DNA of 29,856 nucleotides from a virus: IMG/VR virus record IMGVR_UViG_3300029448_005993, positions 9,880-39,735 of that record; one strand, given 5' to 3'. This document shows, in pieces, positions 3,527-26,500 of this stretch (its first letter is position 1; each line of letters begins with the position of its first letter). Under the pieces are notes generated by a model. It saw nothing but the letters and a program-made list of their open reading frames with translations. It did no database searches and had not been told where the DNA came from. The translations under genes were made by a program, and so were the position numbers.

Positions 3527-4207
3527 TTAAACCTCAGGAAACAAACATTTGTCGATAAAAAGTCTCACATCATCTTCACCTAATCCAAGAGAAGTCATAG
3601 TTCTTGGAGTATGAGGATTTTGTTTTTGGTAGTATGCATATCTATTCTGTGCCTTAATACCTTCAAAAAGTCCATCCATAGAGTCATTAGTTCTTTCAAT
3701 ATAATCTAGGTAGTATTCTGCACCTTCATGAATCATTTTAGTAATCATTTCCATTTCAGATTCTTCTGATACATTACCTGCTGCTACCATATATGGACTA
3801 AAGATTTGCTGAGCCCATTCTGGCAGTGTTCTAGTTTTATTGTATCCATACTTAGCCATTGTATTACCGAACCAATTAATCATTTTATGATCTTTATCAA
3901 TAGTTGGACTAAAATCAAAAAAACATCCAGTGATCTTTTTCTGTCCAGCAATAACATCAAACCCAAAAACAGGACCATCACTACTCAGGTGTGGAAAAAT
4001 ACAAACATGCATCATCCAGAGTTTCTTTGTTTCTCTAGCATCCACCACATCTACATGCGCTCTACGATAAGCATTAGAAGTCCAGACACGATTAACCCAA
4101 CCGGGACGATTGAATTGATCCATCCCTTCTTCTTGAATTTCTGTACCTGTCTCTTCAAACTTATTCTCCAGAAATCTCTGGATTTCAATCAGATTGTCCC
4201 AAATCAT
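3527..4207 (-). CDS. pcyX: Ferredoxin-dependent bilin reductase, PcyX/PebS type
   Basis: This 226-residue protein belongs to the ferredoxin-dependent bilin reductases. The diagnostic core PVFGFDVIAGQKKITGCFFDFSPT (about residues 79-102, given here in parts: FGFDVIAG and CFFDFSPT) carries the Asp equivalent to the catalytic Asp of PcyA/PebS. The preceding strand RRAHVDVVDARETK and the segment HVCIFPH are also typical. The gene follows a heme oxygenase directly, with a 23-base overlap, so biliverdin is the expected substrate. Phage members are PebS of cyanophages and PcyX of uncultured marine phages; both reduce biliverdin to phycoerythrobilin. I prefer PcyX because the setting lacks photosynthesis genes, but a tree is needed to choose. 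Electron donor would be host or phage ferredoxin; none is seen here. Confidence 0.85.
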   Translation of the reverse strand: MIWDNLIEIQRFLENKFEETGTEIQEEGMDQFNRPGWVNRVWTSNAYRRAHVDVVDARETKKLWMMHVCIFPHLSSDGPVFGFDVIAGQKKITGCFFDFSPTIDKDHKMINWFGNTMAKYGYNKTRTLPEWAQQIFSPYMVAAGNVSEESEMEMITKMIHEGAEYYLDYIERTNDSMDGLFEGIKAQNRYAYYQKQNPHTPRTMTSLGLGEDDVRLFIDKCLFPEV

Positions 4208-4763
4208 TAAATAACATATCCAGTTCTAAAAAAATTTTGTGAGCATGGTCAAAGGCAACCATAGCCTCATCTGCCATATCATTATTTAGTTTTTCTTTTA
4301 GTTTCTCTTTCAACATATCTTGGTCTTCATCAAACTGGTAGAAGTTTGTAGGGAATTTATCACCAAGTCGTTTAGAGATAATTTGCCCGCCGGACAAATC
4401 TCCCATGTGTCGGACATAGACATGCGCCAGAATTTTACTTCGATTGTATCGAATAGACATAAGATAGTCCATATATTCCCGCACAGAATCTAGCAGCGGA
4501 GCAGCCTGCAGAGCAGGAGGAAACTCATCTTTAATTTCTTTATGATCTTTCCAGATTTTCTCTGCCCGTCGGATAGACTCAATACCTTCCAGAGCATCAG
4601 CTTGCCATGCAAGGTTCTCTAAAGTATTATAAACAAACCCCATATTGTAAAGATAAACATAATACTCAAATTGAGTAACTTTACCTGACACAAGCTTCTT
4701 AGCAAACTCAGAACGTTCTGCTGTCTTGTGATGGTTCATTGTCAATTCACGAAGTTTAAGCAT
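4185..4763 (-). CDS. ho1: Heme oxygenase, HO-1 type
   Basis: Heme oxygenase opens heme to biliverdin with release of CO and iron. The proximal heme ligand lies in HHKTAERSEF (the H-x2-AE motif near residues 12-16) and the distal-helix signature is MGDLSGGQ, very close to the family's GDLSGG. Length (about 192 residues) is slightly short of bacterial and cyanobacterial enzymes (about 210-240), as for other phage HOs. Two ATGs are possible, 4769 and 4763. AAGG lies 9 bases from 4763 but only 3 from 4769, so 4763 is chosen. The gene overlaps GMP reductase upstream and the bilin reductase downstream, so all three should be made from one message. Confidence 0.93.
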   Translation of the reverse strand: MLKLRELTMNHHKTAERSEFAKKLVSGKVTQFEYYVYLYNMGFVYNTLENLAWQADALEGIESIRRAEKIWKDHKEIKDEFPPALQAAPLLDSVREYMDYLMSIRYNRSKILAHVYVRHMGDLSGGQIISKRLGDKFPTNFYQFDEDQDMLKEKLKEKLNNDMADEAMVAFDHAHKIFLELDMLFNDLGQSD

Positions 4764-5865
4764 TTTCATATACCTTGTTATATTGATTGTTTACACGAAC
4801 AAAAGTTGCACACTTAGTAAGGTCTTTAATCTGCCTAGCACCGATATAGGTGCATGTGCTCCGTAAACCACCCAGAATATATTGAATAGTATTCGCTACT
4901 GCACCACGATATGGTACAAGGATATCCCGACCCTCCGATGCACGATAATCCTTCAGTCCACCAGCATGCCTTTCGTTTGCAGTATTGGATGACATACCAT
5001 AAAACTGACGAAACTCTTTACGTTCAATCTTTGGTTTATAAACCTCTTCATCTTTCATATAGTAGTATTCATTGTTGTGAATATACTTGTGAACAGGTTC
5101 ACCTCCGCCTTCGTCATGGCCTGCCAGCATGCCACCTAGCATCACAAAGTCTGCACCAGCAGCAAATGCCTTGGCTACATCTCCCGGAGAAGTGCAACCC
5201 CCGTCAGCAACAACATGACCGCCAAGCCCATGAGCGGCATCAGCGCACTCGATAACCGTCGATAGTTGCGGATACCCAACACCAGTAACAATCCGAGTAG
5301 TACAAACAGATCCAGGACCAATGCCCACTTTAACCACGTCAGCTCCATTTAGAATCAACTCCTGTGTCTGATCAGCAGTAACCACGTTACCTGCAATAAT
5401 GATGTTATTGACACCACAAAGTTCACGAATAGACTTAACAAAATGAACATACTTCTCCATGTAACCATTTGGAGTATCAATACAAATGATAGGAAATTTA
5501 TATTTGAGAAGACGTACTTTTTCATAATCTGTATCTTGCATACCTATAGTCAAGCATAGACTTTCTTTCATGCGATCTTTGTCATAAATGTCTGCATGTA
5601 GATGCAGTTTAGTAAGTTCATCAACACTATAACTTTTATTCATAGCAACCATCATATTCTCTTTTGAGAATGCTTTTGCCATTTCAGTAGTGCCAACACC
5701 ATCCATATTGGCAGCAATGATAGGAATAACTTCAAATGTTCTTTGAGAGTGTGGGAATTTAAACTGTCTGGTGAGTTTAACTTCTTTGCGGGATTCTAGA
5801 GTAGATCGTTTCGGTCGTAGAAGAACATCCGAATAGTCTAACTTAGTATCACTCTCAATATGCAT
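4756..5865 (-). CDS. guaC: GMP reductase
   Basis: A 369-residue IMPDH/GMPR-family TIM barrel. The active-site loop [17 protein letters not shown] has the catalytic Cys188 followed by TT, as in GMP reductases. The N-terminal [12 protein letters not shown] and AANMDGVGT, and [31 protein letters not shown], are family hallmarks. There is no CBS pair. Length fits GMPR (about 345-350 residues) better than IMPDH (about 490). It would convert GMP to IMP with NADPH and so divert guanine to adenine nucleotides. It is the first gene of the coupled bilin/PhoH operon and follows a structured-looking leader (5866-6084). An archaeal-type short IMPDH is the alternative, less likely by the loop. Confidence 0.88.
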
Positions 5866-6084
5866 TTGTTGTTATCTCTCTAAAATAATGGTGCCGGCAT
5901 AATAAAATGTATAGGTGGGATTAAGGATTACCCACAATGGACCACTGGCAAACTCCTGTCTACTCGACCCAAACCTACCTGCATCTGCTAAGACGGGCCG
6001 CTAAACCCCTTCGGTATTACCTTATCCGCATCTGCCACGGATTATTCAGTCACTATACTATTCCGACCGTCGTCGAAAACTTGT
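5866..6084 (-). ncRNA. GC-rich structured leader or ncRNA candidate
   Basis: This 219-base gap between tRNA-Pro and GMP reductase has no credible ORF and is clearly richer in G+C than the coding neighbours. Read on the minus strand it holds several perfect short stems: ATCCG/CGGAT (6042-6024), GGT/ACC (6021-6013) and GTGGG/CCCAC (5935-5915). The octamer GCAGATGC occurs twice (6035-6028 and 5988-5981). I could not match it to tmRNA, RNase P, SRP, 6S or purine riboswitch consensus. It may be a phage small RNA processed from the tRNA transcript, or a 5' leader controlling the GMP reductase operon. The last 45 bases before the start codon are AT-rich and look like ordinary leader with an AGAGAGA ribosome site. 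Confidence 0.4.
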
Positions 6085-6676: not shown

Positions 6677-7300
6677 CTATATTATAAATGATTCACATTT
6701 TTTTAAACTATCTAATATAACAATATTACTATATTGTTTCATCAGTATATCTATCTTTTTTCTTTGAACAACAATAGCGTGTGGATTTTTTGGGTCCAAA
6801 TAAAGATTATGTTCTGGTAAGTAGAAGTCAGGAAAATAGTTTCTAGTCATACCCTTTTCATCTACCCACTCAATAGGTTCTGGTCTTATCCAGTTTACAT
6901 TCAGTTCATCTAATCTTTTTGCTAGAGCAAGTTCCCAAGAAGAGTCTAAAAGTATACCTTTATATTCTACAACACCCTTCTTCAGTCTTCTATGCTTAGA
7001 TTGCCTTGCCTTTTCAGAAATAAGTTTTTTTGTTTCTTCAGTATGCTTTTTACCTAACCAATGATGATTCACCGATCCTTTTATGTGGGCGTATTTACCG
7101 TTTTGGTGCGCCCTCTTTACACCTTCTCTTTGTTTTTTTCGTGATTCTTCAGTGATACCTGCTCTCATACGAGCAGTGTCCTTATTATACTGATCTCTCT
7201 TAGGATTATGGTCACACCACCTTGAATGATTTGCCATCCATCCTTTAGGTTTATCTGATATATCAAAACTTTCTTTACAATGCTTACAAGTGCTTATCAT
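6677..7300 (-). CDS. Homing endonuclease with NUMOD3 and PD-(D/E)XK/EDxHD-like domain
   Basis: A 207-residue free-standing phage homing endonuclease. The N-terminus has a zinc-finger-like CKHCKESF. Then NUMOD3-type DNA-binding repeats (NHHWLGKKHTEETKKLISEKAR, about residues 78-99, key parts GKKHTEETKK) appear. The C-terminal nuclease has SSWELALAKRL, then YFPDFYLPEHNLYLDPKNP, a Vsr-like or EDxHD-type active-site layout with Glu, Asp and Lys in order. Such enzymes copy themselves into sites lacking them. It lies directly next to the aberrant tRNA-Arg gene, with GGAGAA about 6 bases before the ATG. Its target site is unknown. Confidence 0.82.
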   Translation of the reverse strand: MISTCKHCKESFDISDKPKGWMANHSRWCDHNPKRDQYNKDTARMRAGITEESRKKQREGVKRAHQNGKYAHIKGSVNHHWLGKKHTEETKKLISEKARQSKHRRLKKGVVEYKGILLDSSWELALAKRLDELNVNWIRPEPIEWVDEKGMTRNYFPDFYLPEHNLYLDPKNPHAIVVQRKKIDILMKQYSNIVILDSLKKCESFII

Positions 7301-7319: not shown

Positions 7320-7407
7320 TGGAGCACGCCGGAGGACTCGAACCTCTGCCTTCCAGCCCCTTCATTTACAGCATCCGTTTAGAAGACGGATAAGGGGGAC
7401 GGCGTGC
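7320..7407 (-). tRNA. Aberrant tRNA-Arg(TCT)-like gene without a normal D arm
   Basis: On the minus strand the acceptor GCACGCC/GGCGTGC pairs perfectly over 7 bp, the discriminator is T, and CCA is encoded (7322-7320). The T arm AGAGG-TTCGAGT-CCTCC has one mismatch at its base. The anticodon arm TCCGT-CTTCTAA-ACGGA is perfect and gives TCT (Arg, AGA codons). However only 10 bases separate the acceptor from the anticodon arm, too few for a D arm, and 26 bases separate the anticodon arm from the T arm. CCCCTT before and AAGGGG after the anticodon arm can pair. U73 is also unusual for tRNA-Arg. It may be a degenerate tRNA, a tRNA-like RNA, or a tRNA with a remodelled core. Confidence 0.6.
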
Positions 7408-7415
7408 GATACTAT

Positions 7416-7423
7416 TATTTATA
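7416..7423 (-). promoter_or_regulatory. T4-type late promoter ahead of the tRNA-Arg-like gene
   Basis: The minus strand reads TTTTTTATAAATAATAG. It contains the exact T4 late -10 element TATAAATA, 9 bases before the 5' end of the tRNA-like gene and about 120 bases before the homing endonuclease. Confidence 0.6.
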
Positions 7424-10885: not shown

Positions 10886-13102
10886 CTAAAAGTCGATTTC
10901 GCATGCACCACCAGCACATGCAGCAGCACCAAGAGTATCAACGTCAGTAAACTTCTTTTCTGATAATTCAGAAATCCATTCTACTTGCATGTAAGACCTC
11001 TTAATCTTTTCCCATTTGTGAATCAAATGAGCATCTTTTAAACAATATTCTGCTTGCTTTAAATCACCTTCAAGATATTTATCAGCGAATGAGGTAAATC
11101 TGCGCACCCAATCTTTCTTTAGAGTATTCTTAGAGTTTTCAGCAGAGATATCTTCACCATACCCCTGAGCGGTCATACATGCCATCCAAAGATCGTTGAA
11201 TGCCTGCAGACCATCTACAACGAGACCAGAGGCTAAAACACCCGCCACGCCATATTTTTCCACCATCTTTTCAGCGTCGATAACTTCAGTGTTTGGCGCC
11301 TGATTGAAATCTTTATCGCCAGAAGTAGACAAGAAAGAAATACCAGCAAAATTATCCCGATTGCTGTAAACATATCGAGCAACATCATCCCAGTCCTCCA
11401 CCAGAATAGTATTAGAAACGTTATGAGAAACTGTAGGGTCAGCACAAAGTTCAGGATTCTTACCAGCATTCACCCAGTGCTTTTGCGCCTTAGCAACTAA
11501 ATCAAGGTGTTTAGTGCCGATCAGTTCATCTTTCAGAATAGAACCCTGCTTTGGTGTAATTGGGAAAGAAACTACATAATCACTACCAGATGCAGACCAT
11601 ACAGAGTCCTCTACCATTTCCGGGTTTGTTTTAGCAATGAGTTGTGCAACTTCAGATTCTTTGTTCAACTGAATGTTGCGAATATATCTCTCAGCGTGTT
11701 CAGCGTGGATTCCACTTGCTGTCCCCAAGAGTACAGAAGCATTGCCAGAAGGCTTAACGCAAGTAGTCCGAGCAGCAGCATTAATCCCGAGAAGATTAGC
11801 AATTCTCTTATTAGTATCTTTAACAATCTCGGCACCTTTTTCCAGAATCTTTTCATCGAATAAAATCTCCGGGTTATTCATCCATCCAGTGATAGAAACA
11901 CCAAGCAATGCTTCACGGTCAAAGATATCCTTTGTTGTATCAGGTAAGAACTTAAAGTCAGTATATCCTGCTTGGAGTGTGCCAAGAATAGCAGCTGCTT
12001 CACATGCCTTGTAGAACGATTCTTCATCTACGCACTGACCACCATTAATCTCTGTAAGATTACATCCCTGCCAGCCAGACTGCCCGTCAATCTGTGGGAA
12101 CATACCAATCTCTACACAAGGATTAGTGGTGTGTTCAGTAGATTCTACAAATACAAATCCGGGTTCACCAAACTGCTTAATGCTGTCCATGATATTCATG
12201 AACTGCTCTTCACTTGTTTCTTTACGAACAATCACTGCAGAGTTATTAGACCTTGCTCTTTGCGGATTGTCATTAAACCAATTACCAGTCTTTGCATTCA
12301 TCATCTCTGTATCGTCTGGAGAGAATAAGCAGATAGTAGCAGAACGTCTCACACCACCAGATAATACGGCATCAGCACAATGCATGGCAATATCGTAGAC
12401 ATGAATAGGACGGAGCTGGACAGGTTCTTTAGTACCCATTACAACTCCTTGGATTAAATATTCAATACGGTCGAGTGCCTGTCGTAATCCGTCTGGGCCC
12501 GGTGCTTTGAATCCACCAGAGATTTTTGCACCTTTTGGGCGAATATTCGTAAGGTCGAAAAATACACGACGTCCTTCAAACTCAGGATGTACGCCACCAC
12601 CTACAAAGTAAGAGGACATAAGCACGTCTAGAGCAGAAGCCCAACCTTCAATACTATCTTCTACAATATAACCTTTTGCTTGCTTCTTGCGTTCTGCTAC
12701 AGCAGGGAGTTTATTTACGTGATGATGTTGCACAGAAAAACCTGCACCTGCACCACAAAGAAGAATATAGAAATACTCGCCAAAGAAAGAAGCACGATCG
12801 ACATAGGAAGAAGTGCAGTTATACATTTTCATCTGATGCTTCAGTAGTTGATCGCCGCCAAACTGCAGAGCACGTTGCGCACCAAGAACTCTTTTCTCTT
12901 TGTAAGAGTCTGATGCCTTTGTCATTTCATTTACCAGTTCTGTGGACATTCTATCTTTATAATATCCCTTGTGCATAGACATGACACGATCAACAGATTC
13001 ATTCCAACTTTCATACCTATTTTCTTCATCAATGTATCTGGAATATGCTTCGTAAAATTTAGTTTGAGACAAAAATTCTCTCATGTCTAGACTATTGGTC
13101 AT
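10886..13102 (-). CDS. nrdJ: Class II (cobalamin-dependent) ribonucleotide reductase, NrdJ
   Basis: A 738-residue monomeric adenosylcobalamin-dependent ribonucleoside-triphosphate reductase, of the Lactobacillus leichmannii type (about 739 residues). Visible landmarks are MYNCTSSYVD with the first redox Cys (about 96), ADAVLSGGVRRSATI (about 243-257), the radical-site NPCVEIG, the second redox Cys in QGCNLTEINGG, and the C-terminal shuttle cysteines CAGGACEIDF. It needs no NrdB partner and none is seen. It supplies dNTPs for replication and works with or without oxygen provided the host has B12. GTG at 13111 is possible but GAGG abuts it; ATG at 13102 has GAGG about 7 bases ahead. A sigma70-like promoter lies upstream. 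Confidence 0.95.
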   Translation of the reverse strand: MTNSLDMREFLSQTKFYEAYSRYIDEENRYESWNESVDRVMSMHKGYYKDRMSTELVNEMTKASDSYKEKRVLGAQRALQFGGDQLLKHQMKMYNCTSSYVDRASFFGEYFYILLCGAGAGFSVQHHHVNKLPAVAERKKQAKGYIVEDSIEGWASALDVLMSSYFVGGGVHPEFEGRRVFFDLTNIRPKGAKISGGFKAPGPDGLRQALDRIEYLIQGVVMGTKEPVQLRPIHVYDIAMHCADAVLSGGVRRSATICLFSPDDTEMMNAKTGNWFNDNPQRARSNNSAVIVRKETSEEQFMNIMDSIKQFGEPGFVFVESTEHTTNPCVEIGMFPQIDGQSGWQGCNLTEINGGQCVDEESFYKACEAAAILGTLQAGYTDFKFLPDTTKDIFDREALLGVSITGWMNNPEILFDEKILEKGAEIVKDTNKRIANLLGINAAARTTCVKPSGNASVLLGTASGIHAEHAERYIRNIQLNKESEVAQLIAKTNPEMVEDSVWSASGSDYVVSFPITPKQGSILKDELIGTKHLDLVAKAQKHWVNAGKNPELCADPTVSHNVSNTILVEDWDDVARYVYSNRDNFAGISFLSTSGDKDFNQAPNTEVIDAEKMVEKYGVAGVLASGLVVDGLQAFNDLWMACMTAQGYGEDISAENSKNTLKKDWVRRFTSFADKYLEGDLKQAEYCLKDAHLIHKWEKIKRSYMQVEWISELSEKKFTDVDTLGAAACAGGACEIDF

Positions 13103-13151
13103 AGAACGCACCTCTTAATTTGTATGTGATTTAGAAATTAGTATTCTACTT

Positions 13152-25812: not shown

Positions 25813-26500
25813 GTGGCAATTCCTTAAACCAAGGTTTCAAGAATGGTAGATGTTCTTTTAGAATATTTGCGCATTTGTAAGCAATCTCACGATGTTCTTT
25901 TTGTGTGCCATTACCACAACGCAGCTCACAATAGTGAATCCAAGAACGAACACTACCTTTCATGTACATACGAGACTGCATGTTACCTTCGGGAAGTACT
26001 GCACGTGCTTGCTCCTTGGCAATACCTTTTTGAATTGCTTCTTTGTAAATACGATCTGCATGTGTGACCATAAATTTTTGTTGTGCGTCCCACCATGCTT
26101 GCAATCCAACATCATTTGTTTCAATAGAGTTTTGACGGTTCTTTGTATCCTGCAACCGTGCTTCACGCATATACACAGCAAGGTCTTTAGTCGGATCAGC
26201 ATACCGTTGACTAAACTCTTGGAATGAAAATGAACGGTGCCGTAAAATCTGACGAGCAATATCTCGTGTTGTATTAATTTCAAGAACCATATCAACCATT
26301 TCAAATGGAGACCAGTGTTTATTATCAATTAGATATTTCAACAATTTGGGATTAGTTTCTTTATTGTGCTGATTGGATGGATTAGAAATCCTTGCGCAGT
26401 ATCCAATAATATCTTCAGCAGACATTTTTGCACCAGTTCCATCTTGGTAAGCATTAATCAGTGAAGAAGTAATTGCTACAGGAAGTACAGTTTGGTTCAT
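25805..26500 (-). CDS. thyX: FAD-dependent thymidylate synthase ThyX
   Basis: A 231-residue flavin-dependent thymidylate synthase. The diagnostic motif RHRSFSFQEFSQRY (residues 87-100) fits the ThyX signature RHR-x7-S. The FAD and dUMP contacts around CARISNPSNQ and the later RAVLPEGNMQSRMYMKGSVR are typical; family length is about 220-250. It makes dTMP from dUMP using CH2H4folate and NADPH. It overlaps the helicase start by four bases and lies in the replication operon, so dTMP and DNA synthesis are co-expressed. Confidence 0.96.
   Translation of the reverse strand: MNQTVLPVAITSSLINAYQDGTGAKMSAEDIIGYCARISNPSNQHNKETNPKLLKYLIDNKHWSPFEMVDMVLEINTTRDIARQILRHRSFSFQEFSQRYADPTKDLAVYMREARLQDTKNRQNSIETNDVGLQAWWDAQQKFMVTHADRIYKEAIQKGIAKEQARAVLPEGNMQSRMYMKGSVRSWIHYCELRCGNGTQKEHREIAYKCANILKEHLPFLKPWFKELPHD

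Follow-up and report, generated by a model that had tools for sequence, protein, structure and literature searches.

In an ordinary tRNA the chain runs from the acceptor through positions 8 and 9 to the D strand 10-13, the D loop 14-21 and the D strand 22-25, and then through the anticodon arm, the variable loop and the T arm. Strand 22-25 runs into the anticodon stem, and strand 10-13 runs into A14-R15-Y-Y-G18-G19-A20. tRNA-Sec (RF01852) and the allo-tRNAs have 8/4 or 9/3 acceptor and T arms and retain a normal D hairpin. D-armless tRNAs, such as the metazoan mitochondrial tRNA-Ser(AGY) and the engineered E. coli mini-HisT (PMC11551756), have no D hairpin between the acceptor and anticodon arms, and they lose both the D arm and the T-loop contact. 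Algae and archaea have circularly permuted tRNA genes (PMC3978253) with a rearranged order of segments, but these genes shuffle their ends and are processed to a normal tRNA. Phage tRNA genes also have known companions: free-standing endonucleases, SegB of T4 and T6 among others, lie beside them (PMC13096335), and T4 SegB is needed for the preferred inheritance of its tRNA region (PMC2330249, as quoted in PMC13096335).

The DNA analysed here, called the window throughout, covers 29.9 kb of a 39.7-kb virus record, and its UvsX-like recombinase (66% identical to that of Phage C48C1) relates the phage to T4. Its minus strand from 7407 to 7320 holds a tRNA-Arg(TCT) gene of 88 nt, encoded CCA included, in the order GCACGCC-GTCCCCCTTA-TCCGT-CTTCTAA-ACGGA-TGCTGTAAATGAAGGGGCTGGAAGGC-AGAGG-TTCGAGT-CCTCC-GGCGTGC-T-CCA. 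We believe, judging from sequence comparison, that this is very probably a working arginine isoacceptor made by the phage, whose D arm is rewired to give a strand-order isomer of the cloverleaf, and that it reads AGA and probably AGG as well.

A first-pass annotation of this DNA took the acceptor, the anticodon arm, the T arm and the CCA to be intact, and all of them are there, with one refinement in the T arm. The acceptor strand GCACGCC (7401-7407) forms seven pairs with GGCGTGC (7324-7330), which together with T73 and the CCA occupies 7320-7330. The anticodon stem TCCGT/ACGGA has five pairs plus A26-T44, its 5' strand lying with A26 at 7386-7391 and its 3' strand with T44 at 7373-7378; the loop is CTTCTAA (7379-7385), with the anticodon TCT at 7383-7381. 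In the T arm, AGAGG-TTCGAGT-CCTCC (7331-7347), the fifth pair A49-C65 fails. C65 (7331) pairs with G8 (7400) instead, which adds an eighth pair to the acceptor and leaves 4 bp in the T stem, so the gene has an 8/4 acceptor/T arm. To our knowledge T73 is an unusual discriminator base for a bacterial tRNA-Arg; it is found in 46 of 152 family members.

The gap between acceptor and anticodon stem is exactly 10 nt (7400-7391) and the gap between anticodon stem and T stem is 26 nt (7373-7348), just as first reported. Taken literally, the earlier conclusion that a D arm has no room here is correct, but it is better read as a relocation, with the D stem and the D-loop motif both present and split across the anticodon arm. 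The relocated D stem, H2, is formed by CCCCTT (7392-7397) and AAGGGG (7357-7362), whose potential to pair had been pointed out and which do make six Watson-Crick pairs across the anticodon arm. The GGA at 7352-7354 is the equivalent of D-loop G18, G19 and A20, and GGA recurs in the variable (V) regions of the family. A further stem, H3, joins GCT (7370-7372) to GGC (7348-7350) in the variable arm, and the window copy likely forms a pseudoknot of this stem with H2. All 24 of the 24 pairs in the model are Watson-Crick. None as good occurred among 60 dinucleotide-shuffled windows, which yielded 1 candidate of this kind in total. The minimum-energy fold of the window RNA prefers an alternative 3' hairpin at -33.6 kcal/mol, versus -32.5 kcal/mol for the rewired model.

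Standard tools do not see this gene. ARAGORN and the Rfam tRNA models at curated thresholds report only tRNA-Pro and tRNA-Leu in the window, and when the thresholds are relaxed Rfam's closest model is tRNA-Sec, scoring 27.7 bits against a cut-off of 47. The 8-bp acceptor, 4-bp T stem and long variable region of the window's subtype do resemble tRNA-Sec and the allo-tRNAs. However, the gene lacks the 6-bp D hairpin of tRNA-Sec or any other, its score is below threshold, its anticodon is TCT and not UCA, and the anticodons of its family are those of arginine. It does not pass the cloverleaf models (RF00005) either, having no D hairpin between the acceptor and anticodon arms. This lack is shared with the D-armless tRNAs, but the family keeps a covarying D stem and a conserved GGA, and would keep the contact with the T loop as well, in another chain order and in an RNA of normal or greater length. 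Nor is the gene circularly permuted: it runs from the acceptor 5' strand to the CCA with normal ends, and it is the mature RNA itself that would have the new order. What it does have is the outfit of an adaptor tRNA: an acceptor of 7-8 bp, a 7-nt anticodon loop, a T arm and a CCA end, with helices conserved across the family. The gene is also recovered by covariance models of the two subtypes described below, neither of which included the window in its training: the type A model scores it at 35.4 bits (E=7.9e-8) and the type B model at 73.1 bits (E=8.7e-19).

The family has at least about 150 non-redundant members in phage contigs, cultured phages and a few bacterial genomes, and ARAGORN overlaps just 4 of them, so nearly all are missed. 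We collected it with three patterns. The first, run on IMG/VR, asked for an Arg(TCT) anticodon loop with a T arm 26-44 nt further on and gave at least 120 candidates that could be parsed; among the matches listed, 71 of 120 passed our structural criteria and 67 were retained after 4 were dropped on inspection. The other 49 of the 120 listed failed; many of these are normal tRNAs whose D loop contains CTTCTAA. The second pattern, also on IMG/VR, left the anticodon free and looked for GTAAYTGGA shortly before a T arm. It gave 123 candidates, 117 of them with a good anticodon stem, and 115 of these 117 have an arginine anticodon (TCT 61, ACG 42, CCT 6, TCG 6), as expected of arginine isoacceptors. 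The third was modelled on the window's own subtype and added about 40 members, with TCT or CCT anticodons throughout. CCCCTT…CTTCTAA…AAGGGG used as the sole pattern produced 5 matches, all by chance.

Although the first pattern did not ask for it, GGA is present in the V region of all 67 of the TCT members among the matches listed, and its last base would serve as the A20 that an arginine isoacceptor carries beside G18 and G19. In E. coli the main identity elements of tRNA-Arg are A20 and the anticodon, which may explain why the family is restricted to arginine. Two type A genes have apparent isoleucine anticodons, GAT in L158 and TAT in L303, and keep the GGA; these could possibly be changes of identity or signs of a wider family. 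CCA is encoded in 106 of 152 members. We found no description of this architecture in the open-access literature, a body that does not take in most subscription journals or bioRxiv.

The two subtypes differ in their arms. Type A has a 7/5 acceptor/T arm, U8, and a connector of 7-8 nt bearing a 3-nt strand that pairs with a V-region strand directly before TA(A/G)-Y(Y)-GGA. The D-loop motif A14-R15-Y-G18-G19-A20 thus sits in the variable region, 3' of the relocated strand. Type B, to which the window gene belongs, has an 8/4 acceptor/T arm and a relocated helix of 5-6 bp, with GGA 1-2 bases after the helix. Its 8-65 pair is G8-C65, but C8-G65 in L062 and T8-A65 in L068. Type B also has an extra stem in which the two ends of the V region pair (TAGC/GCTG, GGCG/TGCC, TACT/AGTG and CGAC/GTCG, for example); its mean score is 7.9, where shuffled partners give 5.5 and reach no more than 6.8 in 500 shuffles. 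This stem and the relocated helix together make a pseudoknot.

The covariation is strong, which is what the first-pass annotation had proposed to look for in relatives. Among 116 non-redundant type A sequences the first and second relocated pairs are Watson-Crick in 100% and 99%; the second uses four pair types, where shuffles average 36% and reach at most 52%. The third pair holds in 58%, and in 78% of a set picked by anticodon only. Standard pairs make up 97.7% in type A against 37-45% for slid controls, and 99.1% in type B against 40-52%, the type B counts coming from a 20-member subset since the MAFFT alignment of all members is one base out of register. In neither type did any of 500 shuffles match the covariation score, and RNAalifold places the relocated helix unaided in both. 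When members are folded singly, this helix comes out in just 13 of 116 sequences of type A and 15 of 34 of type B; weak recovery of this sort is common for D stems that are held by tertiary contacts. The tertiary pair R15:Y48 (Levitt) was scored in 45 type A sequences without selection for it and is A-T in 40, G-C in 4 and G-G in 1; in the aligned type A subset the counts are A-U 38, G-C 2 and other 1. The equivalents of A14 and R15 are not obvious in type B, and the case for conserved tertiary contacts is therefore best made from type A.

These data bear on whether the gene is a decaying pseudogene, or one interrupted by an insertion or small intron in the D arm or variable region. The shortening before the anticodon arm and the lengthening after it do look like the result of deletion and insertion. 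However, all of the helices covary throughout a large family, the V-region GGA is invariant, and every pair in the window copy is Watson-Crick. We consider decay or interruption extremely improbable. The idea of a remodelled remnant, raised in the first-pass annotation, is refuted.

The structural logic of the working isoacceptor is simple. In the rewired order the acceptor would be followed by a connector, the equivalent of 22-25, the anticodon arm, a linker, the equivalent of 10-13, a D-loop motif ending in G18-G19-A20, and the T arm. The connector strand of type A runs into the anticodon stem and its V-region strand runs into TA(A/G)-Y-GGA, as their counterparts do in ordinary tRNA, so the equivalent of 10-21 would have moved across the anticodon arm while its spatial neighbours are kept. 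Stacking of the D helix on the anticodon stem and docking of the GG in the T loop would both remain possible, and A20 and C35 of the anticodon, both read by arginyl-tRNA synthetase, would be retained. If so, the RNA should keep its L shape and be charged by the host synthetase. U8, the covariation of R15 with Y48 and the GGA suggest that the usual core and elbow are kept. The RNA probably folds to the normal tRNA shape with its chain connected in a different order. Compared with the canonical phage tRNA-Arg(UCU) (RF00005), it has the same acceptor, anticodon and T arms, CCA, TTCGA T loop, G18-G19-A20, U8 (in type A only), genomic site and likely decoding role. It differs in having its D strands on opposite sides of the anticodon arm, with the D-loop motif after the 3' strand in the V region, and in escaping the tRNA finders.

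The genomic site supports this reading. The local order is a 171-aa gene, the rewired tRNA, a 207-aa endonuclease and a 144-aa gene. Close relatives (L003-L006, L008, L009, L011, L012 and L014) have a normal tRNA-Arg(TCT) between the same two proteins, and within L003-L014 the endonuclease is absent between the flanking genes. The rewired gene therefore takes the place of an ordinary arginine tRNA. The canonical tRNA-Arg genes at this site in L008 and L011 are clearly different from those in L001-L006 and L014, which makes it a hot spot of tRNA replacement. We found no second tRNA-Arg in the virus record, and AGA, with 93 occurrences in 25 window ORFs, is the second arginine codon after CGT (118). 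Just upstream of the tRNA is a motif like a T4-type late promoter, TATAAATA (7416-7423, minus strand). Motifs of this kind number 6 in the window against 2.3 expected, and the TATAAATA leader also precedes tRNA-Arg(TCT) in L423, L424, L428 and L432. Elsewhere in the window a manA RNA motif (Rfam RF01745, 58.6 bits; 5905-6077, minus strand) lies directly after tRNA-Pro and ahead of a gene for a phage IMP dehydrogenase. The regions 4185-5865 and 10886-13111 carry phage-borne genes for heme oxygenase, IMP dehydrogenase and a B12-type ribonucleotide reductase-like protein.

Cultured phages carry the rewired tRNA without a named annotation. We checked FelixO1, Felixounavirus VpaE1_ev78, Av-05, AhSzw-1, Vibrio phage PG07, Salmonella phage Arash and Acinetobacter phage Abraxas directly. 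The gene of FelixO1 is at 25,951-26,028, that of VpaE1_ev78 is annotated 'tRNA' with no amino acid given, and AhSzw-1 has two in tandem, CCT and TCT. With one type B pair as query, BLAST found matches in 343 phage records, the majority from Vibrio and only some of them checked. The type A pattern matched 92 stretches in 84,980 prokaryote genomes, of which about 11 are real, and these include tRNA arrays of Bradyrhizobium; the Bradyrhizobium copy had no match in plasmids. An ordinary tRNA gene lies within 20 bp of 51 of 133 rewired genes, and a canonical Arg gene with the same anticodon is present at just 7 of 147 loci, which are partial. The FelixO1 stretch examined has 25 ordinary tRNAs with ACG as the sole Arg among them, so the reading of AGA would fall to the rewired Arg(TCT). 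The Av-05 cluster has no Arg tRNA besides the rewired one, and in the array L413 a rewired ACG gene stands with ordinary Arg TCT, CCT and TCG. In single cases the gene directly after a rewired tRNA is one for RNA repair (RtcB ligase, PNKP phosphatase or RlaP).

The odd shape and the homing endonuclease nearby could be taken to mean a decoy or a regulatory tRNA-like RNA outside translation, and a decoy had been suggested at the outset. Such an RNA would hardly need arginine-specific identity elements, a canonical anticodon loop and CCA, nor would it be expected to complement the canonical tRNA set in FelixO1 and L413 or to replace a canonical orthologue at the same site. We think it very unlikely. 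The decoy is not needed and is without direct support, though an extra role may remain. The alternative suggestion, a functional tRNA of novel shape, draws strong support from the large covarying family, its arginine anticodons and the replacement of canonical tRNA-Arg(TCT) in relatives.

The neighbour (6677-7300, minus strand) starts 19 nt 3' of the tRNA. It has a NUMOD3 motif and matches to endonuclease PHROGs, and both its nuclease motif family and its absence from close relatives fit a free-standing homing endonuclease. T4 SegB may serve as a precedent for the pair, but by our reading the C-terminal part here is EDxHD-like and not GIY-YIG, and this endonuclease family is tied to tRNA-Arg(TCT). 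In Felixounaviruses L402 (1494-1575) and L403 (1494-1571) an endonuclease VII-type gene, a second kind adjoining rewired tRNAs, starts about 15-20 bp 3' of the tRNA. Two T-even phages, Escherichia phage ELT1 (L027) and Enterobacter phage UFV01 (L028), have distant homologues of the window endonuclease in the reverse arrangement, with the endonuclease gene ending where a canonical tRNA-Arg(TCT) begins. L433 (1330-1440) has a tRNA-Arg(TCT)-like gene, upstream of another homologue, with its anticodon loop apparently split by an insertion of about 50 nt (CTT...CTAA), perhaps an intron remnant.

One could argue that homing endonucleases aimed at canonical tRNA-Arg genes no longer find their cleavage site in rewired DNA, so that the rewired gene serves as an uncleavable rescue copy in a selfish cassette. 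The close spacing in the window suggests this, as does the tight linkage of rewired genes to the endonuclease in L213, L229, L253, L260, L275 and L278, and SegB sets an example of free-standing endonucleases driving tRNA-region inheritance (PMC2330249, as quoted in PMC13096335). Among loci picked for rewired tRNAs, a biased set, close homologues of the endonuclease lie directly 3' of the rewired gene in 10 of 11 cases. However, a search from the endonuclease without asking for a tRNA overturned the idea that the linkage is specific to rewired genes: of 26 loci, 12 have a rewired tRNA-Arg(TCT) directly upstream, about 12 have a canonical one nearby (mostly directly upstream) and 2 have neither. 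The closest homologues (53-68% identical) are mostly beside canonical genes, several with the TATAAATA leader. Most rewired tRNAs have no neighbour of this family, and across endonuclease domains downstream the enrichment is weak (HNH_3 5 and SegE 4 of 99 rewired, GIY-YIG/SegE 2 of 89 canonical). Rewiring is thus not required for the two to live together, and the even split lowers the rescue copy to an improbable explanation. The endonuclease remains relevant, as first noted, but its family accompanies normal and rewired tRNA-Arg(TCT) alike. The cassette of promoter, tRNA and endonuclease carries either kind, which argues that the two are interchangeable.

A further reason for the rewiring, compatible with a role in translation, would be anti-defence. 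The altered elbow and core might make the tRNA a poor substrate for nucleases or sensors of the host or of rivals while arginine supply is kept. Colicin D is specific for arginine tRNA. We know of no defence system that reads the D arm of tRNA-Arg, and the anticodon loop, the usual cut site, is canonical in the rewired tRNA. For the idea are the limitation of the family to arginine anticodons across unrelated phages, the proposal that colicin D is among the host enzymes that select phage tRNA variants (PMC10264068), and how common tRNA-cleaving phage defences are (PMC11555353, PMC12409363, PMC13096335). The arginine limit could also reflect a single origin and the need for A20. We regard anti-defence as possible but doubtful. 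The rewired form may exist to evade arginine-tRNA nucleases, to evade homing endonucleases, or as a neutral alternative spread by exchange.

The boldest version of our proposal, which we hold only tentatively, is a widespread non-mitochondrial topological isomer of tRNA, pseudoknotted in one subtype, that would keep the L shape and arginine identity and go unseen by host or rival factors specific for canonical tRNA-Arg, serving translation and immune evasion at once. If this is a conserved natural class, a tRNA does not need the usual chain order to build its L shape, and tRNA genes have been missed in phages as well studied as FelixO1. The family would then be a test of which parts of a tRNA are read by the synthetase, the ribosome, RNase P, modification enzymes and phage-defence nucleases, and rewired tRNAs may serve as orthogonal tRNA scaffolds.
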